From the NCBI RefSeq assembly GCF_041260155.1, contig NC_091936.1, positions 43,932,930 through 43,996,929 of the forward strand: 64,000 nucleotides of DNA, given 5' to 3'. Below, in pieces: positions 19,208 through 62,889 of this stretch. Position numbers and translations under genes: made by a program. The stretch comes from Ptychodera flava (Eukaryota > Hemichordata > Enteropneusta > Ptychoderidae). Position 1 is the stretch's first letter. Every line of letters begins with the position of its first letter. The notes beneath the pieces were generated by a model that saw only the letters and a program-made list of their open reading frames with translations, made no database searches and was not told where the DNA came from.

Positions 19208-20840
19208 TTATTTATTTATTTATTTATTTTATTTAGTTATTATATCTTCATTTAAGATTATAAAAATCCTTAGCAAAACAACAATACATTTTAAAATATA
19301 CGCTTACTCCAAATCCTCCACAGTCCACTCTGTGATAACACTGATAAAGATAAAACACTCACCACAAGCGGGTTACTTGAAAGATGGAGTCTACTCAGAA
19401 AACTAAATTATTTTTTCCGAAGGATTTCATCAAAAGTTAAAATCGAAAGACTTACAAACATTGAACTGTTAATCTGAATAAAAGAATGTTTAAAAACATG
19501 GGAGTAAGCTCGTCTAACGGCATTAAACGTACATAAAGAAAACGTACTCCACAAGTAAGAACAATAAGGAATATCACAAAAGACAGAAAATAAGTGACAT
19601 TTTACAGAAAGAGGCGCGAATTTAAAATCACGAATTATAGCATTGCCACGAACATAAAATTGCCGAGTCTGAGCCTGAATGTCCTCATTATCCCTACGGT
19701 CACAAGTGATTAAGTGACCAAGGTATTTATAAACACTAACATAATTAAGCATTTTACCATTAAGATAAATTGGAATTTGTCTATTAAGCTTACGAATATT
19801 TGGTTGAATTAGCATACAAACTGTCTTTTGCTCATTTAAAAATATTGAATGATTGAAACCATAATGACCACGCATATCAACAAGCATCTGCTGGCCATAG
19901 ACTCCAGTAGAAATAATAACTAAATCGTCAGCATAAATCAAAAGATTCACCTTATAGTCACCAATAAGGCATCCATAGGGAAGTGTGGAGAGATTCTTAC
20001 TGATATCATCCAAATAGACGGTGAAACAGAAAGGTGACGTAATGCCCCCCTGTTTTACCCCATTCTTTGAATGAAAAGGTTCTGACAGTAACCCATTCCA
20101 TCTCTCAACAAAGTCTTGATACCTATCGGTATACATGACAAAATATATGAGGCTTAACACCGCTATGCAATAGCTTAACATACAGAATATCATGATGAAC
20201 ATAGTCAAATGCTTTGGATGCATCCATAATGGTGATGAAAACAGGAGTATTGCAACGTTTGTAGTAATTCAAAATTTCTTTCAAAACAAAAATTGACATA
20301 TCAGTACCATGGTCTGGTTTTTAAACCCAAACTGGTGATCAGTGGTTGTTAAACATTCCATACAGCGATTTAACCAAACCCTTACGAACAGTTTGGATAT
20401 TGTTGTTGCAACAGCAACTTGACGATAGTTGGATTTGTCACAAATGTTGCCACCGGGATTTTTAGGAATAGGAACTAAAACAGTGGTCATCAATTGTCTA
20501 GGAACAGTTCCATGAATCAAAATGGCCGAAAACAAAGGGACAAAAGAACATTGACTCTATATGGAGCATACTTCAAATGCTCAGGTGATATACCATCAAT
20601 ACCCGATGATGCACCTGTCTTGAGGTTTTTATGCTAATTCACAAATTTCTTCGTGGTGCACAGTCATGTCATTACAGTATTTAATGTTCGAAAATACAGG
20701 TGTCGAATCGTTACCAGTTTTGGTCAAAATTGTTTCATAATGGCATTTCCACATATTTACTACTTCATCGTCACCAGCGTGACCATCAACTGATGATGGA
20801 GCTATTGCTCTACCTTTAGGTTTATTTATGGAAGTCTAAA
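19208..20840 (-). mobile_element. 5'-truncated LINE (non-LTR retrotransposon) with reverse transcriptase
   Basis: Read on the minus strand, 20840 to 19408 encodes a non-LTR reverse transcriptase, broken by about three frameshifts or stops. In order it shows a TGASSGIDG/EHLKYA segment (about 20570-20620), LVPIPKNPGG with NYRQVAV (about 20410-20480), a MDASKAF segment (about 20205-20225), GVKQGGITSP (about 20040) and the catalytic YADD at 19924-19935. No endonuclease is present, so the 5' part is missing, as usual for LINE insertions. After the stop at 19408 a short 3' region ends near an (AAAT)n-like run at 19208-19236, a plausible 3' tail. The superfamily (CR1/L2/jockey-like) was not resolved. 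Confidence 0.85.
19408..20223 (-). pseudogene. LINE reverse transcriptase, palm/thumb part
   Basis: The longest uninterrupted part of the LINE, 271 codons. It includes GVKQGGITSP, a VYLDDISK segment and the catalytic YADD box followed by LVIIS. The coding sequence upstream (20281-20535 and about 20560-20840) is in other frames, so this is a fragment of a degenerate ORF2-type protein that cannot be translated as a whole. Confidence 0.85.
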
Positions 20841-25018: not shown

Positions 25019-26640
25019 GTGACTGATAATCCTAGTTTAGATCAGGATCCAGAGCCAATTGAACAAGAGATACCCGATTTATTTCCTTCATGTGCTATTA
25101 CTCGAGCCATGTCAAAGAAAACTTCCGAGAATCAAAATACTCTCAAAAATAATGTCACAGATGTTGACTTAAATGACACCTTTCTCAGTCAGGTGTTTGA
25201 CACGGATCATTCCGTTATCCCTCGTGGATTTGAAACTTCCAGTAAAACTTCTGCTGACCAAAGTCAGACATTTTCTAGATCAAATCTCATTGCAGAACAA
25301 CACAAAGACCCAGATATTTTGTCTTTGTTTGACAGGGTAGATGATGAAGGTAAAACTTCAGATAGCTCTGTTTCCTATTATACAAAATCTGGTATTCTCA
25401 TGCGTAAATGGAGACCTCCAGATGTTTTGGTTGATGACGATTGGGCTATAAAACATCAAATTGTGGTTCCAAAGCCCTATCGTGCTGAAATATTGCGCCT
25501 GGCCCATGAAACCCCCTGGGCTGGTCACTTAGGAGTCAGGAAAAACTTATCATAAAATTCTCAGTCACTTTTATTGGCCTAATCTCAGGCAGGATGTAGC
25601 ACATTTCTGTAAAACTTGTCACACATGTCAAATGGTAGGAAAGCCAAATCAGACCATTCCAAAGGCCCCTTTACAGCCAATTCCTGCATTTCAAGAACCA
25701 TTTAGTAGGATACTAATAGACTGTGTTGGGCCCCTACCAAAAACAAGATCAGGAAATGAGTACATGTTGACAATTATGTGTACATCAACTCGGTTCCCCG
25801 AAGCCATACCACTGAGAAATATAAAGACAAAGACTATAGTGAGAGCTTTAGTCAAATTTTCACTTTATTCGGCCTCCCTAAATGTGTCCAGTCCGATCAA
25901 GGCTCCAACTTTATGTCTGGAATTTTTCAACAAGTAATGGATCAGCTAGGCATTAAACAGTATAGGTCATCCGCCTATCATCCAGAAAGTCAGGGTGCTC
26001 TTGAGCGATTTCATCAAACTTTGAAAAACATGATTAGGCCTACTGTTTTGACACAGAGAAGCAGTGGGATGAAGGAATTCATTTTTGCTCTTTGCTGTTA
26101 GAGAGTCAATTCAAGAGTCTCTTGGTTTTAGCCCATTTGAGCTTGTATTTGGACATACAGTCCGTGGCCCACTTAAGCTCGTTAAAGAGAAATTCCTATC
26201 AGACGATGATGATTGTCTGAATATTTTGCAATATGTGTCAGATTTTCGTACAAAACTCTCAAAAGCATGTGAATTAGCCAGAGAAAATCTTGAGTCATCT
26301 CAGCAGTCAATGAAAATCAAATACGATAAAAACACCTCAAAACGGAAGTTTGAACCAGGTCAAAAAGTTCTTGTTCTACTTCCAATTCCTGGCAAACCAC
26401 TCCATGCTCGTTACTTTGGGCCATACCTAATTGATAAGAAATTGAGTGATTTAAATTACATCATAATAACACCTGACAGGCGAAAACAAAAACAGCTATG
26501 TCACATAAATATGCTTAAGCCATATTTGGATAGGGATAATCCTACTATAACTCAGCCTGTCAGTGCAGTCAGTTCAAGCCATTATGAAGATAGTGATACT
26601 GAAACTGACTTGAGTGAAAATACTCTAAACTCAAAGCTGG
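25019..26640 (+). pseudogene. pol: pol: integrase, placed upstream of reverse transcriptase
   Basis: The HHCC zinc-binding region spans about 25500-25630 (H...H, then CKTCHTC). The catalytic core follows with D in LIDCVGPLP (about 25719), D in QSDQGSNF (about 25898) and E in GALERFH, 36 residues after the second D, i.e. the D,D-35-E triad. A GPY/F-type C-terminal module (FGPYLIDKK) lies near 26417. Frameshifts occur near 25550 (extra A in an A-run), 25857 (T-run) and 26075. Its place before the reverse transcriptase is the diagnostic Gmr1 trait. Confidence 0.92.
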
Positions 26641-28074
26641 GCTCGGTCAAGCTTCAGAACTCAGAAATCCTGGAGAAGCTGGAGTCTACAAAGTTGGCAC
26701 ACCTCCAGCCAGAACAACAACAACAGGTGAAAGAACTGCTCCACGAATATAACACCTGTTTCAAGATGTTCCAACGAGGACGAACGTCATCTATCACGAC
26801 GTTGATGTTGGGGACAGTAAGCCTGTAAAACAACATCCATACAGACTGAATCCAACAAAAGCGAAATATCTCCAGGAAGAAGTCAAATACCTGCTGGACA
26901 ATGACTTTATTGAACCCAGTAAAAGTAACTGGAGTTCGCCGTGCATACTTGTTCCCAAATCAGATCACAGTTATCGTATGTGCACGGACTTTAGGAAGGT
27001 CAACACTTTAACAAAGACAGACACTTTCCCAATCCCGAGGATTGATGACTGCATCGACCGAGTGGGAAAAGCCAAGTATGTGACAAAATTTGACCTACTG
27101 AAGGGATTTTGGCAAGTCCCTCTGACGGATCGTGCTCGTGAAATATCCGCCTTTGTTACACCAGACGGATTGTTTCAGTACAAGGTGATGCCATTCGGAA
27201 TGAAGAACTCTCCGGCAATGTTCCAACGGATGATCAACGACGTCATATCCGGGCTAGACGGTGTGCAGCTTACGTTGACGACGTCGTCCTGTATAGTGAC
27301 ACCTGGGAGGAACACATCAAGCTCATGCGGAAGTTCTTTGAGAGACTGAGTAAAGCAATGTTGACTGTCAACCTTGCCAAATCTGAGTTTGGTTGGGCGA
27401 GGGTAACTTACCTCGGACATACTGTAGGACAGGGTGAGGTAAAACCTGTTGATGCCAAAATCAGTGCCATTTCAAGTTTTCCCATACCAAACTGCAAACG
27501 ACAACTGATGCGCTTTCTCGGTATGGCTGGTTACTACAGAAAATTCTGTCCAAATTTCTCCACAATTACTGAGCCTTTGACTAACTTACTTAAAAAGAAA
27601 GTAAAGTTTGTTTGGTCAGAGCAATGCCAACAGGCATTTGATACACTTAAAGCCATACTGCAAAGTGCTCCAGTGTTGTCTGCACCAGATTTCACTTTGC
27701 CATTCAAATTAGCTGTGGATGCTAGTGATACGGCTGCTGGTGCTGTTTTATTGCAAGAGGATAGTCATGGTGTAGATCATCCTGTTTGCTATTTTTCACG
27801 CAAATTTAACAAATCCCAGAGAAACTACTCTACAATTGAAAAAGAGTGTTTATCTTTGATATTAGCTTTACAGCATTTTGAAGTTTATGTTACTTCTTCA
27901 AATCAGCCAATAGTGGTTTATATTGATCACAACCCTCTTGTTTTTCTGCAGAAATTTAAAGGCAAAAATCAGAGATTGCTAAGATGGAGTTTAATGTTAC
28001 AGGAGTTTAATCTTGATATTAGACATATCAAAGGCAGAGACAATTTAATTGCAGACTGTCTCTCTCGTATTTAG
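26641..28074 (+). pseudogene. pol: pol: reverse transcriptase and RNase H
   Basis: Reverse transcriptase motifs in order: WSSPCILVPK (about 26930), FDLLKGFW with the motif A Asp at 27092, MPFGMKNSP at 27188, and YVDD at 27271-27282. The connection and RNase H follow with Asp in LAVDASD at 27718, Glu in STIEKECL, and Asp in VVYIDHNPL. The frame ends at the stop at 28072-28074. Frameshifts lie near 26800 and 27270, the latter just before YVDD. Unlike in most Ty3/gypsy elements, nothing coding follows RNase H. Confidence 0.93.
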
Positions 28075-31380: not shown

Positions 31381-31505
31381 CATTCATTTTCTCATGATTT
31401 CAGTTGACCCTTCATACATAGTGTAATTAATAATACTCTCTACCGCATTATCATGACTCTCTGTGTCTCCCGATTTACAGTGTATAATAATATGTGAGGA
31501 CTCAC

Positions 31506-32832
31506 CTGCCGGAAAATCCAGGGCGACCAGAAGATTAACAATTAACCACTGAAAAAGAAAAGCGAACGTCGTGAAGATTATAATAAATGATGTCTTCATA
31601 ACTTTTCTGTGCATTCGATCACGGTCGGGTTTTGTCTCGAACAAGCTGTTTCGCATAGACGCTTGCGATTCTCCTGTCGTCGCATCCGATTCCGTCTGAT
31701 CCCGTCCACTTGTACTCGGTCCGGCCGTTGCAGCAGGCAGGCTCTCACCGTTTGCTGGAAAACACAACCGCACAGGCTTTCCGTTGAGCGGACCGGCCTT
31801 GACCACATTACCCGTAAACGTCGACTCGTTCGTGTCGCTGAAACTCGATCGTGGCATTCGGGATACGTTGCAATCTACAGAGGGAACAACTTTATTAGAG
31901 TTCATCTCTGATCTTCCATATTTTCGGGGACCGTTGTTGCCCAGGGTCGACCGTGTTTGCTCCACGTGCTCGACGGTCCTTTTAAAGATGTCGTAGTAAC
32001 AAAGACACACGGTGACAAGTGATAGAAATGTAACTACACCGACACAGTACGCTAGATACCAAATAAAACTGTCGACACGATTCGTCCACAGGTGACAGCC
32101 ATGGCTATCGTCGCCCTGACTGGCTGTGTGACTGATAGTTGGCCCAACGCTCAGTGAAACAGACAAAATGCCACACAAAGCCGACACTAACAACACTTTC
32201 TTCGAATTAAGCCATCGTCTTGGATATCTTTTCACGAGGTCGTGTCTGTCGACGCTAATGAGAGTAGTGACGAATATCGTCAATAGCAGGGTCGAAAAAG
32301 ATAAAACTTCATGTACTAGACAGAATTCAAACATCACAATGTTAGGGTTCAGAATTCCGGCTAAGGCCATTGGTACACATACGGTACACGTCACCAGATA
32401 CGCAACTGAAAGAATGGTTGTCAGATACTTTCCTGTTGGTTGTTTCCTTTGATAATTGATTGACGTGATGACCAGAACATTGTCCATTGTACCAACCACA
32501 AACACGGCCATTAGAATAACAACGCAAGACACCGTCAGCCATGAACTAAACTCACGTATGATACAGTGGTCATGTCCATCTTCAACGTCGTGGTCGCTAT
32601 GATGGCCAGGCTCCTCGCAACCATGAGCCATTTCCAACCACTTTGACGAGTTCGCACTGCAGTTGTGATGGTCCATGTCGACAGTGAAGGACTTGCCAAT
32701 CATCTCATATAATAGCTGCCACTGTCGAAAAAACTCCAGCCGTTCAGTCAACACAAGCGATTGTAACAGTGCGACAGTGCGTTGGGCAAACAGAATTTCG
32801 ACAGTTCTGTGAGCATGTACTGTTCGCAGCAA
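31506..32832 (-). CDS. Orphan rhodopsin-like 7TM receptor, first large exon (partial)
   Basis: A 442-codon exon encoding helices 1-6 of a G-protein-coupled receptor. Approximate spans: TM1 98-124, TM2 136-160, TM3 168-194, TM4 212-232, TM5 254-282, TM6 412-440. TM3 ends in DRH (195-197) in place of DRY; Cys171 and Cys246 are placed to form the usual TM3-ECL2 disulfide. TM1 has GTMDN where GN is usual, and TM6 lacks the CWxP motif (FLFQW). The third intracellular loop is long (about 130 residues). The N-terminal 97 residues have NCS and NSS sequons and a His/Asp-rich patch at about 76-89. A consensus donor (GGCAG then GTGAGT) ends the exon in phase 1; TM7 must lie on a further exon, not identified. 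Ligand and subfamily are unknown. The start is the first ATG after a TATA box; later in-frame ATGs are possible. Confidence 0.82.
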
Positions 32833-32880
32833 ACCAATAGAATCGTTTTAGGTGAGCTCATCCCACTGTTACACAACGAG

Positions 32881-37453: not shown

Positions 37454-37519
37454 AAACGTATGCAATGAGGTTACGTGACCCCGAGAGCTGAACTTTTCTA
37501 TCAATGCTGAAAGTTAAAG

Positions 37520-38230
37520 ATGGCGGCGTATCTGGTTATGGCGATCCGTGGGTGTCTGTCTGCTGCATTGCCGTTAACCGTGTTCATAGCATTTCTTTGC
37601 AGCCAGTGCACCGGACAGTTCCCGAAAGACTGCCTATCACCTCATGCTCTGTCGAGCAAGGAATGCTGCCCCGTCCCTGAAGGGCACCGGGCGAAATGTG
37701 GAGGTGCTGGAAGAGGCACATGCGAAGATCTGTCAGTGGAGAGTGCAGATTGGTCTGATTATGTAGGCGATCGGGACAGATTTCAATGGCCATATGTATT
37801 CTTTCACCGGGCATGCAAGTGCGAAGGAAATTATGACGGACCGGACTGTGGCACCTGCAAATTTGGCTTCTACGGCGGACTATGTGCTGATAGGGTAATG
37901 CTGGTTCGGAAAAATATTTTGAAAATGCCGAGGGCAGAGGTAGAGAAGGTAAAAGCATACATTTTAGAGGCTAAAAATACAGTCAGCAAAGTTCAAGTGG
38001 CGACTAGTCTGTACGTGGACATGGAAGACGGAAGGAATCCGTTTTTCAACGATATCAACGAATATGACTTATTCACATGGTTGCACTACTATGCTACAAG
38101 GCCAAATATTCAAAGACCCGCCGGTTGTCAAGGCGACGGTGCCACCAGAGTTGACTTTGCTCATGCCGGGCCGGCATTTTTCTCGTGGAACCGCCTACAT
38201 TTACTATTGTTCGAACGAATGCTTCAACGA
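37520..38230 (+). CDS. Tyrosinase exon 1: signal peptide, Cys-rich region, CuA
   Basis: 237 codons, ending phase 0 at CAACGA then GTAAGT. It carries the secretion signal, paired cysteines of the EGF-like region (CKCEGNYDGPDCGTCKFGF), and CuA. In CuA the segment reads WNRLHLL, where TYR and TYRP1 have WHRxxLL. Confidence 0.95.
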
Positions 38231-41200
38231 GTAAGTGTATGTCACAAGTTAGTCACTTGATGTATATAGAGCGTGTACATAGCTCTCCGTGAAAATCACA
38301 GTGTTCATAGAGATACGTATATCATTAGAATTACTGTTCAGTCTCATTCATGCTTTGTACACATGTTTGGCCGGCCAGACTTCGAACCTGTGCTTGCATT
38401 CCGTGCGGAAAGAGTCATGAACGCTGAAGGCGCGAACAGCTCGTCATGGGTGCAAGCGCGGGTTCGAGGTCCAGGTACTAGGTCTGTCTGGCAAGACTAA
38501 TATGGTCACATCTCTTATCTGTTGCTATGTTTGGCGTACATACTGAAATAGGAATGATAAATGACCTACACTGTCGTAATTAATAACGTCTCCATCATCT
38601 ATAGGTCTGTTCCATTGTGACCCAATGACCAACTCACACCATTCAATTACTTTCCTGTAAATTTGATGATGTTGTACAGAACTGGATTTTTTTATTTTAA
38701 AAGCGAGGAAATTTTATTCTTGGCAAGGTTTCTCCCATGCAGGAGATATGCTTTGAGTCTGGGAAGATACCTACATTAAGGTGTGGCGAGGGTGTGTTTA
38801 GGTACGATTTCTGCAGTTGGGCAGGTATCCAAAATTCACCATAGCAATCCCTAAAAGATAAGAGAAATGTTCACCTTTGTACAACTTGAGCTTTCTATTT
38901 ATAGGACCAGAAGCCGCCTATTGATTTCAGAAATGAAAATGCCTCTCCAAAATGAGAAACAAGAGAAAGCAAGAGAAGATATGATAAGAAATTATTCATA
39001 CCCTTAAAGAATACGAAATGATTCTTTTTTTGATTAAAAAGGGAAACGTTTCTCTCAGTCATGAATCTGTCTTTGCGATGTGTATTAACCTGAACACATT
39101 CTGCTGATTGTGAAAATACGAGTATCCAATGAAATGAGAATGCTGGCCAAGCGGTCTCGGCATTGGTACGTCTATTGTCTCGGGAACGCTTGTTTTATGA
39201 ACATCAGTGTTGATAGGAAAACCAACTAGATTCGTCGACCATTTTCAAACCATCTTGACCATTGCTCGGATTAAGCATAATGCTGTAAAATTGTTATGCA
39301 ACAACATTTGAATTTAAAATCATAGCCCCAGTTTACGAGTATGAAACTGCTAAGTGCTGAGTCGGTGCACTAATTTTATATTAAATAGTTAAATCGCTGA
39401 TTGAAAGAAATTAAGAAGGTTACTTCTGTATACACCCAACAAATGCCTGCTGTTATTGTTGGTCAGTTCTGCCTCATTTGCTTCATGTTCACAGGTAAAT
39501 AACGATTATACATTCGCACTACCGTACTGGGACTTTTCAGAAGCGACACACTGTGATGTCTGCAATGACATCTACATGGGAGACAGTTCGGCAACTTCTC
39601 CTCACCGTGTACTCGGACAATTTGGAAAGTTCAAAACTTTATGCGCAGACGCCGAGCGGTTTCATGGCCTTGGTCTGGTCTGCAGCAACATCGATACCTC
39701 GCAGTCAACTTTTATCACTCGACATCCGGGACACGCCGTCAATCCTTCAACGGAACCGGCCGGACTGCCCGCCGGACTGCCGTCGAAGGACTCTGCCCTG
39801 TATAGCCTAAGCATGACTGCGTTTGATCGACCACCTCAAGCGAGCGAGCCTCGCTTCAGTCAGTGGCTGACATCTCCTTGTAGTTTCAGAAACGTCTTGG
39901 AAGGTAAGCAGTGGCACAGCTACTCTTGGTGACGTCATTATTATTAGTTCAGTTGAGAAGATTCTCCTTCTCAAAGACTATTGCATATTTTATAATACTT
40001 ATTATGGTCTGAGTTGTACGTTTGCAAATCGCCATCTCCACATAAATTGGATTCCATTTAGGAATATCTATATTCAAAGGAGAGGGCAATTCGGGGACAG
40101 ATATACACTTTATTCGGACATTATAATAATTTTCTTGTTTATTACTTATGTATCTGATTTTGAAGTTATTTGAATAAGTGAAGTTTTCATCGTGTTGTTT
40201 GTGTAAAAATCGAAAGTTTAAAGTGAAAGTAATATGCAAAAATCTTTGAGGAGTGAATAACTATACGTATTGTGATGTGTGACCACTCCATCCTAAGATC
40301 TGGTAGTGGCACCCCCAGTCACTTGGTTATTTGAAATCTGCCTTATTATGATTATTATGATTATGATTATGCTAAGCCGCTTTCAGCTCGCTTACAGCAC
40401 AGGCTATTGCAGACAATATTCATCCAGAAGTTATGATTCATAAACGTCATGTATTACAATTTTTATTATACAAGCCTTACCATTGTGTGAGTGTGCCTAT
40501 TACTTTACCCTAGCTATCTCCATATAGTGCAAGGAAAACAGTCCATAACAGTTAATTACCCTCCCCAATCTCCTTCATTGGTATGTTCTACCAGTCACCA
40601 ACGCGTTGGGGAGGGGGGTTATCACCCTGACTAAACAACTCGTTAGCAGCTCATATGGTAACAGACGGATTACCTTATAACTGCATTGGCGATAGGTAAG
40701 GAAAAAAACATGAAAAAACTAATGCAGGAAAGATCGGTAGAAAAAAACTAATGCATGGGATTAGTAAGGGTCATTAACAGATATTTTATGAATACTATAC
40801 AGAGATAGCGAAGGTAAAGTGATAGGTACACACGACACCGGTAAGACTTGTATAATAAAAATATTTAATACCTGACGTTTATTTATCATAACTTCTAGAC
40901 GAATACTGTCTGCAATACGATGTGAAACAGCGTACGGCAGTAAAATCTTGAGTTGCAAACTCGTGCCCTGATGTCAATTTTGTTTGTCCAGGGTCAATGA
41001 TTGAGTCAGCCGAATGATTGAAGCCAGTAGCAAGTATTGACAGTTTGATGAAGTCATAGATGTACAATACGAATGCAAATTTTCAATGATGAGTGCTTAC
41101 AAATACTTAGATGCCAGAACTCTTATGGTAGTATAATTATCCAAACAAGCACACGTCCAATCCAAATGTTGCTTTTTCGTGCAAGACTGTTTCTTGATAT

Positions 41201-50866: not shown

Positions 50867-50872
50867 TTTATT
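50867..50872 (-). terminator. Polyadenylation signal for the expansin gene
   Basis: AATAAA on the minus strand, about 140 bases past the stop codon at 51009. Confidence 0.55.
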
Positions 50873-51008: not shown

Positions 51009-51566
51009 TTACAATTGCCGTAGACGAGCTAAGAGGAGTTCTAATCTTGATGTTCTATCCATTTCTCTACGAGTCGCGGCTTGGCAGGAAGTGGAAAACT
51101 GCACTGTGCCGTCGTGAAGGTCAGAAGGGTCTGACGGGAAATATGTGATTCTGTCCTCAACTACCTCGCCAGTTGTTGACGTAATGCGTACTGCGAAGGG
51201 CACATCCATTACTCCTTGTTCGTTGACGAAGAAATTGTACGGTTTCCTGGGTAGGTCGATCCAGGAATCTTGGTTGTCTAGTTTGACGGCGAGAGATTCA
51301 ACTGGAACTCGGTGGTTCACAACCTGGATACCAAACCACCATCGCGTGCTGCCGCTTTTGAATTTGTACTTGAAGTTGCCCAATACTGGGCACTCGATTA
51401 GTCGCCAGCTTATGTCGATTCTGCCTTCTTGGCGTTCGGCTAGCTTGAGAAACGCTTCTTCGCTGAGATCAATGTCTCCCGCCGCGCACTCCGGACACTG
51501 GTCGACGATCTGTATCTGAATGACGTCACCATAAGGTCCAGTGACCTCAACACATTCGCCACACAC
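51009..51566 (-). CDS. Expansin exon 7: barrel and CBM63-like domain of module 3
   Basis: Acceptor TTTTACAG, phase 0; 185 codons and a stop. Starts VCGECVEVTGPYG, then VDQCPEC and GDIDLSEEAF, TRWWFGIQV and KPYNFF. It ends in a basic, leucine-rich tail of about 25 residues not present in the other modules. Confidence 0.94.
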   Translation of the reverse strand: MCGECVEVTGPYGDVIQIQIVDQCPECAAGDIDLSEEAFLKLAERQEGRIDISWRLIECPVLGNFKYKFKSGSTRWWFGIQVVNHRVPVESLAVKLDNQDSWIDLPRKPYNFFVNEQGVMDVPFAVRITSTTGEVVEDRITYFPSDPSDLHDGTVQFSTSCQAATRREMDRTSRLELLLARLRQL

Positions 51567-54500
51567 CTGTAAAATAATTTATAAATACCAAATATGAATT
51601 GTTCCACTCTTCCTTAATACCTTTGTCGTGTATCAATGGTTTTAAAAAAGTAGAAATCGCATCTTGGATTTTTCCAGGTCTTCTCTTGAGAAGCCCATAG
51701 GATAAAATTTTCATCATTCTAAGCGATACAGCAACTAAGGAACCGTTCAGTTTTTACGGCCGGGGGGGGGGGGGGTTGGCAAAATCGTGTCACCGGTGTT
51801 CAAAATAATATAGACCCTCCCCCTGCATTTTTCGTGAAAAAAAGATGATCCCCCTTTGTAAGACGAAAATATTTGATGACACCCCCCCCCCCCCCCCCCC
51901 GCTGAAAAATAACCAAAACCCATATGTCAAATTTACCCGCACGGTTTGGATTTGATCTCCGGTACGCGGCGCACTTTATTCGTGTAGCAGAGATGTCAGT
52001 GCACAAACTTCTTAGATCTTGGAAGGGGGGTGGTCACAATGAAATTGTGAATTTTTTTTTTACTATTGTAAATTTCTAAAAAAACTTTTTCCAATTGAGA
52101 TTAGCAGTGCAAATTTTTTTTTAGACTAAATTTTCAGATTTATAATTGTTTTAGTTCGTCGCTGTCTGAGGATAAAGAGGGCAAATATGTGGTGCAAAGC
52201 TCCACAAGCAACTGCGCAAGCGGTCACGGGGGAGGTCAGGAGGGGATGTCCCCCTCCTTTCATTGAGCTTTTGAAAAATAGAGATTAAAATGGTGTTATT
52301 TGGTGGCACTTTGGGAGTATTTTTGCGGTGGGAGGTCAGGAGGGGGGTGTCCCCCTCCTTCCATTGGAGCTTTTGAAAAATAGAGATTAAAATGGTGTTA
52401 TTTGGTGGCACTTGGGGAGTATTTTTGCGGTGGGAGGTCAGGAGGGGGTGTCCCCTAAAATGGTGTTATTCGGTGGCACTTGGGGAGTATTTCTGTGGGG
52501 GAGTTTAGGAGGGGGGTGTCCCCCCTCCTGCCGTTGGAGCTTTTGCAAAATAGAGATTAAAATGGTGTTATTTGGTGGCACTTGGGGAGTATTTCTGTGG
52601 GGGAGGTTAGGAGGGGGGTGTCCCCCTTCTGCCGTTGGAGCTTTTGAAAAATAGAGATTAAAATGATGTTATCTGGTGGCACTTGGGGAGCATTTTATTC
52701 AGATTACACATCTTCCGCTGAAACATGGTCTTCTTGCTCCTCAGTAGCTTCCTGTAGTTTTGAAAATTGACTATTTTGGTTTCCTGGCTTCACTTTCTAC
52801 TGCGGGGTGAAATGCCTACATTCACCCCACCAAACATCATGCATATCTCATAATTGACAATTGATTTTGACAAGCTTAGAAGCTGTTTGCAAAATATAGT
52901 GAAATTTGCATATTTGTGTTTTTAGACCAATTGTTCCCCTTTTATGATCAAAACATCTATTTCTCTGTATCAGCATGTCCAAATTGATTGGATGTGTATA
53001 GATGTGGTGAAATTTCAATATTTGTCTTTTTAGGCCAATTTATGCAATCTATGGTCAAAAAATCTGTATTCTCTGAAAGGGCTTGTCCAATTTCTTTGAA
53101 ATTTGCTACATAAGTCCCTTAAGATTTGTTTAAATCATGCTCTTTTTTGTGGTGGAAAAATTCTTCAGATAATTGTCATTCAGCATTGCTACACACAAAC
53201 GATTTATTCAGTATTTGCTATCGAGAAACTTTCAAAGTGCAACCCTTTTGTGTGTTTTTGTGTTGGGATTTGTTGGATAGATGGCATTCTACGTAGTGTA
53301 TTGTTGAATGTTAAAAATGTATTGCTGTTGTTTTTTAGGCTGTTTTTTGTGAAAAAAGAATTGAAAATACCTTTTTAAAAGTAAAATAATACATAATGAC
53401 TTGGTATGTTGTTTTATCATTATTGACGTGTTTCTGCTTCTCTTGTGTTCATCATTGCAATAAAATGCTGTGAAAAAATGAACCTGATGTGGCCTGCATC
53501 TGTTTACCTTGATCTTAAAAGGCAAATATAACTTTCTGTCTTGACAACCATACCAGAGTTTCAATGTTTTACCTTGTGTACCTGCTTGGTTTGTACACAG
53601 GAAACAGGTAGAAAACTGGCTCTATAATGTTATAATTTTCAAGTGATCAGAATACAAAAGTCCTGAAAAGATAAGATAATCACAACTTCCAGTATAAGGG
53701 ATACAGTCACTCGAAATGTATAAATTAAAATTAAAAATGTGTCTGGAGGATGTACTAAAAAATACAGAAAGTCGCTTCCTGTGGGTAAAATCTAAAAAAA
53801 ATTCAAGATTTTAAAGACTTTTGCAGATTTTTTTTACGCATTTGTCTTCTTATTTATTTTTTTTTATTTTGCAAACTAGTTTGAAGATTTTTTTTCCTAA
53901 CTTTCTGCTCAGAAAGTTTTTTTTTCTGTTTTTGACCATCCCCCTCCCTAGATCTAATGGTCCCTCCCTAAGTAAACCTAATTGGAGTGGGCCGCCAAAG
54001 GCGTCTGCCCGTTAAGAGGGCCATGGGTAATACATAATGTATATTTATTGTGGTGGGCCGCCCAAGGCGGCCCGCCGGTAAAGAGGGTCGATCATGGCCA
54101 TGGCATAAAGTGAACTTTATTGTTGGTATTATGTTTTTGAAAATGTGGTGACCCCCCCCTTTCCTACCAGTGAAAAAGCGATGACCCCCCCCCCCTTTCG
54201 CGGATTCCAAAATTACGATCACCCCCCCTGGATTTTGCCGGCCCCGCGGCCGTAAAAACTGAACGGTCCCTAACTAGTCGGAGACTAGCAAATATGGCCG
54301 AAGAGACATATTTTAAAAACTATGCTCGTTCATTATGATATACTTATCACTCATTCATGGTGTAGTCACTGTCATGATGTAATTTATTTCTATGGTGTGC
54401 CCACCTTTGCGTTGTCATAAAACGGTTTAGCCATCGCTCCGACCATAAGATCACCGCCAGTGTCGATCATACAATTTCCCCCGCCGGCAGCGGCGCCTGA

Positions 54501-56926
54501 CGCACCGTAGAATGTTCCTTCACCGTGATGGACGTTTTCCTCCACAATACATACACCACCAACGTTGGGATCCTCGTCGCCTTTCTCTGGTGGTGCAGAT
54601 GGTACAGCCGTATCTGATACCACAGGGAAATACAAGAGTTATAAGGGATAAACTCGACAGTTAGTGGTTTTCTGTTGTTTTTTTTGCATTCTTGAAGTTA
54701 AGATTTCATGACAGAAGCCGTGAGCCTCTGACCTTGTATTTAAATTGGGAGCTTTAAATAAAATTCTTTGTTTGCCGTCTTGCTTGCTGGTAGGTGTTCA
54801 GAGAAAATTAATGATTCCAAAAGAAACCAAATAAAAAATAAGCTTATTGTAATACACTTGTGCTTTTTAATCTGTGTTTCTTTTTTTCCCTGGCTGGCAG
54901 GTACGTTTTTTTCAAAATTAGAGGATGCCAAACAAAGAATTTTAAATTAAATTAAATTTTATGGTAGATTTTGGCATTTTGAGAGTGATTTCTTTCTCTA
55001 CTGAAATTTTCTTTTTGAGCGAATTTCATGTCTGTATTGTCATCAGCTTTGTCAGCAGATTCCAATATTCTGCACATCACATGTGACTTCTCAGATCATA
55101 CAAAACTGGCAAAATATTATGCCTGGAGCGATTTGATTTCCGATAAGTGTTTTCGGTAGATCACAACAAACTATTTACGTAAACTTGTGACAATATTAGC
55201 TTGAGCTTCGTGGCAAAAGAGAGCGATGCAAAGCCAATACCGTAAGGACAGGTGTTGTGTGATGGTAATACCAGTCTCAGTATTTCTATGTCCTTTGATA
55301 GTGTCTTACCTGGCTCTTCGTCCCCGTCTTCCTCGTCACCTTCCTTTTCATCGTCTTTTTCATCTCCACCATCATCAACCACGCCACCACACGGCGGAAA
55401 CTGCACAGTCCCATCCACCAGCTGTGATTCACTGCCAAGAATCGCATGTATCGTGTCTCGCACTGCAACTCCCGTGGTGGATGTAACTTTAATATCAAAA
55501 GGTGCCTCGATAACCCCTGCCGAATTGGGCTTCAGGAAGAAATTATAACCGGTCCTCTCCAAGTCGATCCAGTTGCTTTGTTCAGATTTCTTGAGTTGAA
55601 TACGGCTGACAGGATAACGATGGTTGTTCACTTGGATACCGAACCACCACTGGGTACTTCCGTCCTTGAACTTGTATTTGAAGTTACCAACGACGGGACA
55701 CTCCACCACTCGCCAGCTGATGTCGATTCTGCCCTCGACAAGTTCGGCAATCTGTTGGAAAGCGTCTGGACTGAGATCAATATCTCCAGCGGCGCACGAT
55801 GGACACTGGTCCACAATTTTGACATGGGTTTTGTCACCGGAAGGACCAGTTACTTCGACACATTCGCCACATACCTGAGATGAAATACAGAAAAAACGTT
55901 CGTGTTAAATATCTAGCCATAGTTGATGTCTGAAACAATATATGAGCTGAATTATACGCTTGTCAAAGATAACTTCACTTGAAAACGTCAACTCCAGTTG
56001 CAAAAAATCTGAGAATGCAATAATTGTGAAGTGGTGAATTATGAACGGTATGTCTGATTTTAACATTTTATAAGAATGCCACCATTAGTGATTACCACTT
56101 CAATTGTATTTATCAACTTACTTGATGTTCTGCTTTCACTGATTTTGACTAAATGATGAGTTCTGTTATGTCATGCTATGCAGTCAGTGTTTAAAATGAC
56201 AAATTGAATCAAAATTTTTAATGAACTCACAAGCGTTTAAAAGAGTAACTCGAAACTTTTAATGTTATTGTAAGTATCAGAACATCGCTCTGGTTGAAGA
56301 AAGAGAGTCGATCGTTACAATCTTGTTTTTGACAAAATGTTTAAAAATTATGCAATATATGCAATATAAGCGTCAACACTGTAAAACAATGGAATTGTTG
56401 TTAGATCTACTTCACCTGAGAGTTTTCCCATGATCCAACTGCCATAGCCCCAATCATGAGGTCTCCCCCAGTATTCAACATACATGTACCGGATCCAGCA
56501 GCAGCTTGTGGGGCTCCAGTATAGTAGGTTCCTTCTCCGTGATGTACCTGGTTGTCAAGCGCACAGCCAGCTCCTGGTTCGTCTTCGTTATCTGTCAAAG
56601 AAATGTCGACACAAAAATGTTTATTTAATGCTATGTGTCCCCTTAGCACGTTTTAATCGGTATTTAAAGATAACAGTTTTCGAAAAATGTCCGTGAAATG
56701 CAATGCGACTTTTGACCGAAGGTAATTAAACCCCAGAAGACTGTTGACGAACCGTAAACTTTGACCCGAGATATTAAAAAGTACAGTTTGATTCGTGGGT
56801 CAAACATACTCACTCTCTTCAGTGTTTTCATCGACTTCGTCGTCGTCGTCCCCCTCCTCCTCCTCCTCCTCCTCTTCTTCTTCTTCCTGTTCTTCATCTT
56901 CGTCATCACCATCACCACCGTTATTG

Positions 56927-56980
<54 letters not shown>

Positions 56981-59900
56981 CCACCGTCATCTTCATCACC
57001 ATCATCACCACCGTCATTGTCATCATCATCACCGCCGCCATCGTCGTCTCCGTTGTCTTCATCCTCATTATCATCTGCATCATCTTCCTCCTCTTTGTCG
57101 TCATCTTCTCCATTCTCATCTTCCTCATCTTCCTCTCCCTCATCCGGTGGGCTGGGGGTGACCTCGTCAACTTCATCTTCACACGATGCAAACTGGGAAG
57201 ATCCTTCAATGATCCTTGATTGGCTGCCATAGATGACGTCAATCGTCTGCTCTACCTCTTGCCCGTTGGTTGATATCACTTTTAACTTAAATGGAGCTTG
57301 TATAGGACCTCCGGCCTGCGGTTTCAAGAAGTAGTTGTATTCGGTTCTCCTGAGATTAATCCATCGATTACGATTTGGTTTCTGCAGTTGTACTCTACTG
57401 ATCGGGTATCGATGGTTCAACACTTGAATTCCAAACCACCACTTTGAACTTCCTTCCTTGAACTAAGAATAGATATATTATTTCAACTTTAGAAGTTGCA
57501 AATTTTTTTTCCTCTAGCGCATGTCTAGCATGTTTTAGAAAAGTGAACGTGCAGGAACGATCACTATATGCCAATCAGTAATATGTATCTATAGGAGATT
57601 GCCACTAGACGACTTTTTGACTCTCCTTTTACTTTCAGCTTAAGTATAATAATTGCCAGGCTTGGAATGATTTTGGCCAAGTTTTTGTCTAATGTATATA
57701 ATAAATCATAGCTCTGTCAATACAAGTGTTTGTGACGTCATATCTGCAAATTATAATTACTGATAATGTATCCGATTATCCAACATTGTGGCCCGAGAAG
57801 TTTGCTACATCTACAAAATCGCAGGCATCGCCAAAACTATAAAATGATAGAAATAAAGTAACCCCTCCCATGGACTCAAGCAAACTTTGCACTCATACAT
57901 GTACTCGGCCTTCCATCATGGGTCGGTGGGTGTACATTATAACCCAGTGAAAAATATCGCTGCAACTGATTTGAGATCATGTACGTAGTAAGCAAGGCTT
58001 AACAATTAGGGCACACAAATGTCATTTACTGCATGATTATAATGTCGGCGTGTGTATTGATAAATTTGTTGTTGTCATGTAGAATACAATTACCTTGAAA
58101 CTTAGATTTTCTGAAACGTGGCAGGGCACAATACTCCATGATACTTCGATAATACCAACGGCTAGGTTACTCTGCAGGACTTTGAAAGCTTCCTCGCTGA
58201 GAAGCACTCCCTCTTTGTCACACCCATCACATTTTTCAATCACCTTGACAACGACTGACCTGCCATTCGGTCCTGTCACTTGTAAACACTCGCCACAGGC
58301 CTGTAACATAACGAGAGAGCGTTTTGATGTGTAATTACGCAGATTGCGCCCACGTGAGTGCTTTTCTAAATCCATAGCATCATGGGCATCAGAAAGTGTC
58401 GGTTATACTATTTGTACCACTTGCTATTGGCTAAAATAATAACCATGTCAAAAAAGACGACCCTTTCTCCAGTTATGAGTGGTCACGTGATCTTTCACTT
58501 TGTAGAAGACCTATCGAAATTGTCAATTGCTGTCACAGTTCGCAAACTTTGTTGTCAAATGATGTCAATCCGGTATGTAGCTTCTATCTTATATGTCTAA
58601 AATTGTGAATCTTCTTCACATAGAACCTATTCAAATCACGGGCCTTCTTTGAATGTCAAGATCTTTATCCCTTCATTTCCCATTCCGATTTTTTTCTACT
58701 TTAATTTTAACCTAAGCTGTTCATTTAGTTAACTAGCAAAGAGGAGGGGAGGGGAGAAGGCGTCTCTGGCTTTAAAATTCATCACCAAACTTGCAGAAAC
58801 ACAGATTTTCTCAGTATTAAAAGCGGTTTGGGATTTGTATATCATGTTGTGTAATATTTTGGGAATTTCTCAGTTGCATTTGTCCTCGATAAACTCCAGG
58901 CATCAAGCGCAAAGTGTGATTTATAGCATCTGCATTATCACCCGTTTACTTAAACCCGTTAACGCCTGGAAAGACCCGAATCGCGGTCTGGGCTTTGCGT
59001 TCAGCGAAATGCTGCCGTATTAGAGTTTCAGAACCCATGATATAGCTGTTCAGCGGAGATGAAGGCCTTATGTCGCAAGTCCTCCACCTGTTAAGACATG
59101 CAAATGTGGTACTCTGGAGAGACAAACGTATACGCGATGTTTGGTGATGATTACCACAGACCACTGTTACCATAGACAGTAGAGGTGTCTCTCGTCTATG
59201 CTGTTACCAAAGAGAATTGCGTACCTCATGCATGCAATGTAAAGCTTGGATATCATGGGACACTCTTTACTGATCTCTAACATAATAACGACAATTCAAG
59301 TCTGCTGCGAAATTTATTTGATTAAATACCAGTCGCTAGCGAATAGCGTTAATTACTGTCTAGAGTGAAAACAACAATTTTGTTAAGAATAGAGTTTGCT
59401 TGTGATCTCTCCATTGCGTAAGACGACAAGCTAATTACAGTAAGAGGCGAACTGAAATCCCTCAATTAGTGAAGGTGTTGTGAGCGCTAGCTAACAAAGT
59501 TTCAGTCGACCCTGCAAGTTTTTTAAAGAGTGTTGGTAAGATTAGCTTGGGTGAACTAGCCTTTCACCAAATTTTCTCTGAGGAAGAAAGTCGAATGTGA
59601 TAGCTTTGTTCGCCGATGGACGGTGTATGAAGATGAACAAATAATACCATGACGAAATATGAATAGCAGAAATCACTCTAGGTAGTGACACGTCACTCTA
59701 GACAAGTCTCTTATGCACCTGCAAATGTTAACTTAGACGAGATACTTGCCAAAATAGCTGTGCAGAGAGACACTTTCTGTGGCAAGTCACTTTTCTGGTC
59801 ACTTTTCTGACAAAGTTAACTACTGCGTACGCCCGAGAAACGCCAAGCGTCTATGACCAGTCTAGGGTGACTATATACATATAAAGCACGTACATTTATG

Positions 59901-61059
59901 GTCGTTGAAATGTAGGGCCTACATTGATGTAAGTGTGTTTCTTTCAGACAGGTGTTACTGCGTTAAAATGTACACTGATGTAAATGTGTTTCTATCAGAC
60001 AGGTGTTACTGCGTTGAAATGTACACTGATGTAAGTGTGTTTCTGTCAGACAGGTGTTTCTGCGTCCTAGAACCATGAAGGTACAAGTAAACTTTGCATT
60101 CCATATTGAACTCGGCTTCGCCTCGTACATTATGTCATGCAAAATTTTCTTTCGTCCATTATCGACCAGGAGGGGGTACATTGTTGCTTAATTATACCAC
60201 ATTTTCAATATTTCCACAGGTATTCGTCAACATGTGACAGAAAGCACGGCTTATTAGTGCCGCCCCCGTTTTATGTGACGAAAGCGAACAAGTAGTATGT
60301 GAACTTACGGCTGTGGATAACAAACCGTTAGGTGTAATTGTAAATAGGACGTTCAAAGAAACACCGAGAGACAAAACTGTGTTCAACCCTCTTTCTACCA
60401 AACCGTATCGGTGGCCATGGATTCGAAGGGCTAAATTTGGTAATTTCTTCATTGCTTTCTGGCGATGGATTAAAGACTGGCGCTGATGTGACTTAAATGT
60501 GCATTTAAATATCACGCTAGATGATCTCATCTGTATCAAGGAAACTTGGTGAACGAGTGTCAACAATTTAAACTCATGTCACTTAGTATGTCACTTCGCC
60601 TGTTCTAATTATATCTTCCTCTGATGATACAAGATTGTAAAGGCAGCGCGAAATAAAGAAAACCAGATAACTATAAAGTCTGAGGAGAGGATTATTATCA
60701 GTGGACAGTTGTGTAAAAACTAAAACCAGCTACTTTTGGAGAAACAATCATGTGAATTGAAAATGAAACGGGTGTGGAACTTTTAGACGCTCTTTAAAGT
60801 GTTTAATTCTAACATTGTGTTATTTTAGTTATGTGTGAAACGACTCGCTCACCTTTGCTTTTCTAAAACTTCTTCGTCCGATGCCAGCCACCATCATGTC
60901 ATCTGACGTCAGCATACATGCTCCGTTGCCGGCAACTGAACTTGTTGCGTCGAAATATCTTGCTTTGCTCTGCACGACATCCCCGAGGGATTCGCACGAA
61001 GCCGACGCGCCGGTCACAGCAGCAAGATACGACAAGAGACGCAGAATGGAGACCTTCAT
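51009..61059 (-). CDS. Secreted triple-expansin protein, seven exons (856 aa)
   Basis: Three consecutive expansin modules, each a double-psi beta-barrel (expansin domain 1) plus a CBM63-like cellulose-binding domain. Exons, 5' to 3': 61059-60853, 58300-58094, 57462-56814, 56591-56416, 55874-55310, 54613-54405, 51566-51009. All introns are GT-AG with phases 0,0,1,0,1,0. Residues about: signal 1-20; module 1 21-231; acidic linker 232-362; module 2 363-574; acidic linker 575-617; module 3 618-840. Modules 2 and 3 keep VDQC and GDIDLS (equivalents of the conserved EXLX1 Asp pair); module 1 has IEKC and GVLLS. All modules keep WWFGIQV and the Tyr of YNFF/YNYF. Sequence is closest in my judgement to bacterial EXLX1 (YoaJ), which loosens cellulose without hydrolysis. 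Inferred role: extracellular, disrupting plant or algal cellulose, perhaps in digestion. Confidence 0.92.
51738..54271. mobile_element. Non-autonomous DNA element (2.5 kb) inside expansin intron 6
   Basis: Bounded by inverted repeats AGGRACCGTTCAGTTTTTAC (51738 on plus, 54271 on minus; one mismatch over about 24 bases, extending with gaps into C/G-rich inner arms) and flanked by a 5-bp direct repeat AACTA (51733-51737 and 54272-54276). No transposase frame is present. The interior is a 102-bp tandem array plus AT-rich DNA. The host intron's splice sites are untouched. Confidence 0.85.
52225..52695. repeat. Tandem array, about 102-bp units, inside the intronic element
   Basis: Landmark ATTAAAATGGTGTTATTTGG recurs near 52286, 52388, 52557 and 52658 with a shortened unit at about 52456. 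Units also carry GGAGGTCAGGAGGGG-type and GTCCCCCTCC segments, so each can fold back. Confidence 0.92.
54405..54613 (-). CDS. Expansin exon 6: start of module 3
   Basis: Acceptor GTATCAG, donor GCAAAG then GTGGGC; phase 1 to 0. Encodes a short linker (SAPPEKGDED), then HHGEGTFYG and GGGNCMIDTGGDLMVGA. Confidence 0.92.
55310..55874 (-). CDS. Expansin exon 5: barrel and CBM63-like domain of module 2
   Basis: Acceptor ATCTCAG, donor GCCAG then GTAAGA; phase 0 to 1. Starts VCGECVEVTGPSG, then VDQCPSC and GDIDLSPDAF (the conserved Asp pair), RIDISWRVVECPVVGNF, TQWWFGIQV, RTGYNFF and DGTVQF. It ends in a short acidic linker. The best-preserved module. Confidence 0.94.
56416..56591 (-). CDS. Expansin exon 4: start of module 2
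   Basis: Acceptor CTTTGACAG, donor TCTCAG then GTGAAG; phase 1 to 0. Encodes HHGEGTYYTG and GSGTCMLNTGG, the N-terminal strands of an expansin barrel, including the small-hydroxyl motif before the tyrosines. Confidence 0.92.
56814..57462 (-). CDS. Expansin exon 3: CBM63-like domain 1 and long acidic linker
   Basis: Acceptor TTCTTAG, donor GAAGAGA then GTGAGT; phase 0 to 1. The first 90 or so codons encode the binding domain with SKWWFGIQV and TEYNYF. About 120 codons of Asp/Glu-rich linker follow, including 18 consecutive Asp (GAT repeat, 56926-56979) and a run of about 11 Glu. The linker is encoded by trinucleotide microsatellites. Confidence 0.92.
58094..58300 (-). CDS. Expansin exon 2: barrel of module 1 (degenerate)
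   Basis: Acceptor TGTTACAG, donor TTTCAAG then GTAATT; phase 0 in and out, 69 codons. It starts ACGECLQVTGPNG and contains IEKCDGC and GVLLSEEAF. The two Asp found in VDQC and IDLS of the other modules are Glu and Leu here, so this barrel may bind but probably lacks normal loosening activity. Confidence 0.92.
59905..60068. repeat. Minisatellite, about 52 bp x 3
   Basis: Three units sharing CTGATGTAAGTGTGTTTC and TCAGACAGGTGTTACTGCGT. Confidence 0.93.
60238..60486 (+). CDS. Weak candidate exon nested in expansin intron 1
   Basis: A plus-strand stretch of about 83 codons without Met at its start, bounded upstream by a TGA overlapping a possible acceptor (ATGTGACAG) and ending in TGA at 60484-60486. 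The peptide is compositionally protein-like, with a C-terminal WPWIRR...FWRWIKDWR segment. No family is recognised, and chance cannot be excluded. Confidence 0.2.
   Translation, partial: QKARLISAAPVLCDESEQVVCELTAVDNKPLGVIVNRTFKETPRDKTVFNPLSTKPYRWPWIRRAKFGNFFIAFWRWIKDWR
60853..61059 (-). CDS. Expansin exon 1: signal peptide and start of module 1
   Basis: 69 codons, donor AAAG then GTGAGC, phase 0. The signal peptide is about residues 1-20 (hydrophobic LRLLSYLAAVTGASA). It then encodes the first strands of barrel 1 with ARYFDA and GNGACML, the counterpart of GTYYTG and GSGTCML in module 2. Confidence 0.9.
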
Positions 61060-62279: not shown

Positions 62280-62889
62280 TGATTGCGAAATGAAACAATA
62301 TACTTTGCAGACTCACAAGTAGATCGTGGGAATGATCACGATGGTCCACTTCATCTCTTAGCCAGCCAGTAAGTGTTGCGAAGGCCTGATAAAAGTTGTC
62401 TGTCACACGTCTTAATCATGTCCTGGATGTCGGGCAGGGATGACTGAAAGTACATAATCGAGTCCCTAAGATAGGGATACTTAGAACCCTTTCAGTGGTT
62501 CACACAATATGTAAATATCGAAGGGAACGTCTTCAATGCCCAGGTTTTCGAGAAAGAAATTGTAAGTTTTTCGAGAGATCAGTCCAGAAGGCTTCACCGG
62601 CATTATTTTCATGGCGACAGAGTGAACGACAAAGCCTTGGACTGACACAACTTAGATGCTGCCGAAACACCACTTCGAACATATCGTTCTTATGTCATTC
62701 TGACAAAATACTCCGATATACCGAGATTCTTCATGAATGGTTCACTGTAAATGTTTACACTGCACTCGCTACCATAAGTTATCTATAACAGTGAGCTTAC
62801 AGGACCCTATTAAAGAACGAACAGCGGTAACTGTTGATATTTAGTTCTCAAAGGCAATTGCAGTAAATACATTTTCTTATTCTTTTCCC

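Follow-up and report, generated by a model that had tools for sequence, protein, structure and literature searches.

Three linked expansin modules of bacterial type in a predicted acorn-worm gene

Expansins loosen cellulose without cutting it, through a mode of action reported as still unsettled (PMC5072189). Bacterial expansins of the EXLX1 type, represented by Bacillus subtilis YoaJ (PDB 2bh0), PDB 9ms5 and the NCBIfam family NF041144, consist of a double-psi barrel followed by a CBM63-like domain. Within YoaJ, Asp82 is reported to be required for loosening, the D82N variant being inactive; W125, W126 and Y157 touch the bound glucan, and Thr14 and Tyr73 are listed as important for creep (PMC5072189). 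Here we describe a gene in a 64,000-nucleotide (nt) stretch of the genome of the acorn worm Ptychodera flava (GCF_041260155.1, contig NC_091936.1, positions 43,932,930 to 43,996,929), hereafter the window, with positions counted from its first letter. The gene is predicted to encode a secreted chain of three EXLX1-type modules, of which modules 2 and 3 keep Thr12, Asp71, Asp82, Lys119, Trp125, Trp126 and Tyr157 of YoaJ. It is unlike the bacterial EXLX1 proteins, which have one module per chain in the genomes examined, in its module number, its Asp82-less first module, its introns and its acidic linkers.

Most expansins of plant-parasitic nematodes are barrel-only or joined to CBM2. These expansin-like proteins are described as probably bacterial in origin and as parasitism effectors, and the expansin-related protein Bta15239 of a whitefly as acquired by transfer (PMC11800479). 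The nematode proteins are likened to the window protein by description only; Bta15239 resembles it as a transferred gene in an animal and differs, as that account presents it, in its plant donor, its single barrel and its lack of CBM63. Further, an expansin (yoaJ) is named in a sponge (PMC10176882), and for an Expansin-YoaJ of the anemone Exaiptasia the domains given are barwin-like, chitin-binding and pollen-allergen-like, one of each (PMC6626399). These two are likened to the window protein by name or domain listing. We take the sponge to belong to the genus Spongilla. To these reported cases in nematodes, whitefly, sponge and anemone, the window adds one from a deuterostome. The literature searched (titles and abstract starts, with most subscription journals outside it) contained no report of a hemichordate, tandem or multi-module expansin, nor a further animal EXLX1 case. 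The expansin family is thus a known one, and an animal three-module chain with an Asp82-less first module is, as far as that limited literature goes, apparently undescribed.

Seven exons on the minus strand, joined from 61059 to 51009, give an open frame of 856 residues, in agreement with the coordinates, length and consistent phases of a preliminary description of this DNA. All six introns run GT...AG, with phases 0, 0, 1, 0, 1, 0 and lengths, from intron 1 to intron 6, of 2552, 631, 222, 541, 696 and 2838 bases. Exon 1 (60853..61059) carries the start codon, what looks by eye like a signal peptide, with cleavage near the junction of ASA and S, and the first part of the module 1 double-psi barrel; it aligns with the start of the first module of a Glandiceps relative (CMLTSDD.MVAG). 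Exon 2 (58094..58300) encodes the remainder of this barrel, and exon 3 (56814..57462) the module 1 CBM63-like domain and an acidic linker of around 125 residues. Much of this poly-Asp linker is encoded by an ATC/GAT microsatellite (56894-57031, 46 copies of a 3-base unit), so its length may differ among individuals. Exon 4 (56416..56591, phase 1 in and 0 out) begins the module 2 barrel, and exon 5 (55310..55874, phase 0 in and 1 out) completes module 2, including Asp71, Asp82 and the CBM63 aromatic patch, and continues into another acidic linker. The end of that linker and the beginning of the module 3 barrel lie in exon 6 (54405..54613, phase 1 in and 0 out); exon 7 (51009..51566) encodes the remainder of module 3, again with Asp71, Asp82 and the CBM63 patch, followed by a C-terminal tail and the stop. 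A polyadenylation-like AATAAA (50867..50872, minus strand) lies 137 nt past the stop.

These exons could instead derive from two or three neighbouring genes wrongly joined, and there is a second, decayed expansin copy nearby that would suit such an error. Upstream of the gene and in the same direction, positions 62420..62678 of the minus strand (62678-62508 plus 62488-62420) hold a CBM63 relic of module 3 type, interrupted by an in-frame stop and a frame change (E 7e-7 against Glandiceps module 2 in a 7.9-kb search); it is probably what remains of another expansin gene copy. Exons 4 and 6, however, have no in-frame ATG back to the first upstream stop (200 bases, by eye) and therefore depend on upstream exons, and the phases match. 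Two acorn-worm database proteins, though possibly predictions themselves, also join two modules, and the acidic linker of one of them supports the joining of its modules in one chain. We consider wrong joining very unlikely.

The internal organization of the gene carries traces of its history. An intron just before (A/V)CGEC occupies an identical site, in identical phase, in all three modules, which fits the earlier suggestion that introns were gained before duplication. Phase-1 introns stand on both sides of module 2 and on the 5′ side of module 3, so a two-exon unit with phase-1 borders was probably what was copied; module 1 has one additional intron, which separates its two domains. All 24 cysteines lie inside the modules, 8 in each. 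The alignment of modules 2 and 3 covers 163 codons, with differences at 45 first, 41 second and 104 third positions; this pile-up at position 3 argues for a protein kept by selection, and we read the synonymous changes between these two modules as saturated.

Membership of the EXLX1 family was assessed with NF041144 (expansin_EXLX1, cut-off 100 bits), which modules 1, 2 and 3 pass with 168.5, 199.6 and 205.4 bits, bearing out the description of three EXLX1-type modules. Their best E-values against expansin structures are 1.8e-28, 4.6e-41 and 2.1e-46, and in each module the alignments to PDB expansin chains span the barrel and the CBM63-like domain, those of module 1 starting at residue 40 or later. 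In Pfam, DPBB_1 is above its cut-off in modules 2 and 3 and below it in module 1; Expansin_C passes in none, being below cut-off in module 1 and unlisted for the other two. No Pfam match to the GH45 family appeared in the modules up to E 0.01, a comparison that does not extend to the GH45 catalytic acids. Module 3 scores 161 bits against 9ms5 and 26 bits against 1n10 (Phl p 1), which we take to be a grass expansin. This module search, one of the checks named in advance, supports a nearer relationship of the modules to bacterial expansins than to those of plants, as judged from such alignments; the trees below contained no plant sequence. Of the motifs first remarked on, WWFGIQV is present in all three modules, and VCGEC, VDQC, GDIDLS, GNFKYKFK and YNFF are found in modules 2 and 3 only, their counterparts in module 1 being altered to ACGEC, IEKC, EGVLLS, ENLSFKFK and YNYF.

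A protein search with modules 2 and 3, in which the best 8000 candidates by shared words were scored, matched four proteins: two from animals, each with two modules, and two of bacterial appearance, each with a single expansin unit. The animal proteins, both titled merely 'uncharacterized protein' and both from Enteropneusta, are LOC144434331 of Glandiceps talaboti (P0048; 50% identity over the aligned part) and a second Ptychodera flava protein (P0049; 40% identity over the aligned part), in which the acidic linker noted above occurs. They are the only multi-module relatives found, and two stretches in each pass NF041144. Like the window protein, they have a first module without Asp82 (N-type) followed by a module with Asp82 (C-type); unlike it, they have two modules rather than three. 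The three N-type modules are mutually 38–46% identical, and seven cysteines are invariant across all seven hemichordate modules. An AlphaFold model of P0048 (26 rows; mean predicted local distance difference test score, pLDDT, 75.2; predicted template modelling score, pTM, 0.48) consists mostly of beta strands and has a C-terminal helix at 460-490, hydrophobic by eye.

The residues tied to loosening and binding were read by alignment in YoaJ numbering, checked on the structure chain. Positions 12, 71 and 82 read T/D/D in all four C-type modules (window 2 and 3, Glandiceps 2 and Ptychodera 2), and in the N-type modules R/E/L (window 1), T/D/N (Glandiceps 1) and R/G/K (Ptychodera 1), so that Asp82 is missing from every N-type module. 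The three modules of the window are therefore not equal, contrary to the first description of three complete units: module 1 lacks Thr12 (its Arg is encoded in exon 1), Asp71 and Asp82 (Glu and Leu, in exon 2). All three window modules, module 1 included, keep the binding residues K119, W125, W126 and Y157; at these positions Glandiceps 1 has KYWY and Ptychodera 1 has KRNA. Among bacterial relatives, Asp71 and Asp82 are present in 204 of 204 and Thr12 in all 197 with a letter there, in a sample that leans towards Asp because 80 of its rows came from a scan with patterns containing those motifs.

Trees bear on the age of the duplications. The largest had 70 rows, left from 214 after removal of near-copies, with ten reference rows always kept and the short protein P0047 dropped earlier; the others were a 68-row quick tree, a small set, one with ORFs from the myxobacterial survey below and a small set from which the long Ptychodera 1 row was left out. 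All seven hemichordate modules fall into a single clade, with support 96/81 in the 70-row tree, whose bootstrap had not settled, 99 by the Shimodaira–Hasegawa-like approximate likelihood ratio test (SH-aLRT) in the 68-row tree and 100/100 in two smaller sets; with Ptychodera 1 left out, the remaining six do so with 100/100. N-type modules group together (100/99 in the 70-row and small sets; window 1 with Glandiceps 1, 100/98, in the set without Ptychodera 1). Four trees pair window module 3 with Glandiceps module 2 (99/96, 96/94, 98/96 and 96/95), and the same four put module 2 beside the N-type modules (97/88, 93/87, 92/88 and 93/83). Because of the N-type grouping and the pairing of module 3 with Glandiceps 2, the duplications are not recent. 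Two groupings were rejected in two small trees, modules 2 and 3 as sisters, as in a recent triplication (p 0.0037 and 0.0063), and window modules 1, 2 and 3 as a clade (p 2e-68 and 0.0024), p-values that flatter the rejections, since the groups to be tested were chosen with the first tree already in view. A single clade of the four C-type modules survives (p 0.784 with 68 rows; 0.062 and 0.082 in the small trees), and in the 68-row tree this topology scored better than the free tree.

On these trees, the first duplication is older than the divergence of the acorn-worm families (Ptychoderidae versus others), which disfavours one triplication event within this lineage as the form of the internal duplication suggested at first. 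The simplest reading of the second duplication is that it is older than the split from Glandiceps, and that Glandiceps then lost its middle module or has one that is unannotated.

We propose that the gene encodes one secreted three-module protein in which modules 2 and 3 loosen glucan and module 1 anchors, derived from a bacterial-type module by stepwise duplication; we judge the chances that all of this holds to be about even. The protein would be secreted, probably into the gut or mucus, where its three CBM63 faces, on flexible acidic linkers, would bind cellulose or a comparable glucan. Modules 2 and 3, which have Asp71 and Asp82, would loosen glucan contacts without hydrolysis, and module 1, without the loosening residues, would anchor them on the fibril. 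A likely use would be the opening of algal or plant detritus for cellulases. Historically, one bacterial-type module would have entered the lineage, gained an intron and then given rise by duplication to the N- and C-type modules, all ahead of the divergence of the acorn-worm families, with the C-type module duplicating again before the split from Glandiceps.

Several observations weigh against this proposal. First, Thr14 is replaced by Ala and Tyr73 by Cys in modules 2 and 3, unlike in YoaJ (module 1 has Ser and Cys). Bacterial relatives, however, have Cys73 in 204 of 204 and Thr14 in only 7 of 204, so these two positions cannot serve as a test for the entire EXLX1 family. Second, a Stigmatella expansin with Leu at position 82 is reported to retain an electronegative patch (PMC5072189); loss of Asp82 therefore need not mean loss of function. 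Third, the N-type module of P0049 lacks the binding aromatics, with R, N and A at W125, W126 and Y157, so an anchoring role cannot be general. Finally, the placement of module 2 has moderate support, and a clade of window modules 1, 2 and 3 survives in the 68-row quick tree (p 0.0845).

Some of the same residues could mean that module 1 has decayed to a remnant and that the working protein consists of modules 2 and 3. The loss of Asp82 from all N-type modules and of the binding aromatics from the Ptychodera one would follow, yet N-type modules have kept their mutual identity and the seven invariant cysteines, and window module 1 keeps all four binding residues; we think a remnant improbable, and less likely than the proposal above.

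Digestion of algal or plant detritus is our first choice of function, and adhesion its main rival. The protein may be an adhesive or matrix component of mucus, burrow lining or body surface that binds polysaccharide rather than loosening walls for digestion. Multivalent binding and long acidic linkers would be in keeping with a matrix role, the predicted P0048 helix could anchor that protein, and the anemone Expansin-YoaJ is tabulated among genes upregulated in the pedal disc (PMC6626399). Pure adhesion, however, would not need the Asp71 and Asp82 kept in every C-type module, and no terminal exon resembling the Glandiceps tail was found in the window (best E 0.92). We regard adhesion as a tentative alternative, one we would not favour. 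Less likely still is a protein aimed at bacteria, which would bind bacterial cellulose or peptidoglycan in immunity or control of the microbiota. Its bacterial-type family and likely secretion would fit, and double-psi barrels are reported to occur in lytic transglycosylases as well (PMC5072189), but the cellulose-holding residues of YoaJ are intact.

A bacterial source of the expansin module is likely from the range of its relatives. The minority of matches with an organism name are all bacterial, both among the 47 proteins of a single-module search and among the 120 listed of the 131 from an alignment search. Scanning GTDB genomes gave 242 relatives; 50 of the 80 kept are myxobacterial or deltaproteobacterial by title, and the rest come from Ignavibacteria/Chlorobi, Chloroflexi, Pseudomonadota, Bacteroidota, Actinomycetota and others. 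These searches rely on shared short words and returned no recognisable sponge or anemone sequence. No viral relative was confirmed. In the 70-row tree 9ms5 groups with a Streptomyces row. None of the bacterial groups sampled for these unrooted trees stands as close sister to the hemichordate modules. The transfer from bacteria first suggested thus stands as to a likely bacterial source, though not as to a donor; because YoaJ-like proteins are reported in a sponge and an anemone, the transfer may or may not have gone straight to hemichordates.

Chains with two modules were sought in bacteria by coordinates. None was present in 22 genomes (33 matches; the genomes of 23 of the 80 kept loci), and none in 195 genomes from the phylum to which G005 belongs, by inference Myxococcota since G005 carries a Myxococcus locus. 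Five close bacterial pairs occupy separate frames. A Chlorobi genome has two adjoining expansin genes (L016, 1372-3043), both with the Asp82 motif (IDLS). One record titled Comamonas (L005, genome G004) groups in the phylum of G005, and its title may be wrong.

In the 195 genomes, 80 have an EXLX1 match, 70 of them above the cut-off, and 4 have two neighbouring genes (L081-L084). Each of these pairs joins an upstream copy that keeps Asp82 to a downstream copy with Gly, Ala, Gly or Ala at this position; all four downstream copies keep K119, W126 and Y157, and Thr12 is lost in three and Asp71 in one. In 18 chosen stretches, 22 matching open reading frames (ORFs) were read: Asp82 is kept in 12, and the other 10 have Ala, Gly, Leu or Val; six of the 22 (L091, L094-L098) were by choice excluded from the tree made with these ORFs. 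The pairs resemble the window protein in placing an Asp82 copy beside an Asp82-less copy that keeps these three residues, and differ in being separate genes in the other order. A grouping of the N-type modules with the Asp82-less paralogues of bacteria, as expected if they arose from these, was rejected (approximately unbiased test, p 0.000376), so Asp82 was lost independently in myxobacteria and hemichordates.

The downstream myxobacterial copies possibly form an unrecognised class of partner expansins. An Asp82-less module linked to Asp82 modules in two acorn-worm families, together with the myxobacterial parallel, would suggest that binding and loosening are separable in one molecule. A bolder reading is that the tethered anchor-plus-loosener, with an Asp82-less module for binding only on one chain with two active modules, was invented in acorn worms and that myxobacteria independently evolved a like division of labour as neighbouring genes. 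This we offer as speculation that is more likely wrong than right; if true, Asp82-less expansins would be a recurrent functional class of partners and not dead copies.

The surroundings of the gene bear on its animal origin. The window has 76 open frames of 95 residues or more; ten of these were compared with Pfam, and three of the ten gave no match. The scan found a rhodopsin-type G-protein-coupled receptor (GPCR) frame (31387-32847, minus strand), tyrosinase-like exons on the plus strand (37511-38257, above the cut-off, and 39405-39929, just below it), retroelement pieces in several plus-strand frames (25533-28071), with matches to reverse transcriptase, RNase H and the integrase zinc-binding domain, and a further match to reverse transcriptase on the minus strand (19411-20268). 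Bacterial contamination of the assembly might explain why the named single-module relatives are bacterial, but the six introns bordered by splice signals, these neighbours in the same sequence and the two animal relatives, whose contigs reach up to 29 and 40 Mb, make it extremely improbable and support the metazoan gene of the preliminary description.

Two introns contain repeats. Intron 1 has a 51-base tandem repeat of 2.9 copies (59920-60065). Intron 6 holds an element (51738-54271) with 30-base inverted ends, 93% complementary, the 5-base repeat AACTA at both borders (by eye) and two matches to its end sequence in the window; it is likely, from these ends, a DNA transposon or an insertion like a miniature inverted-repeat transposable element (MITE). 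Inside it are tandem repeats of around 101 bases, partly G-rich, at 52230-52695.

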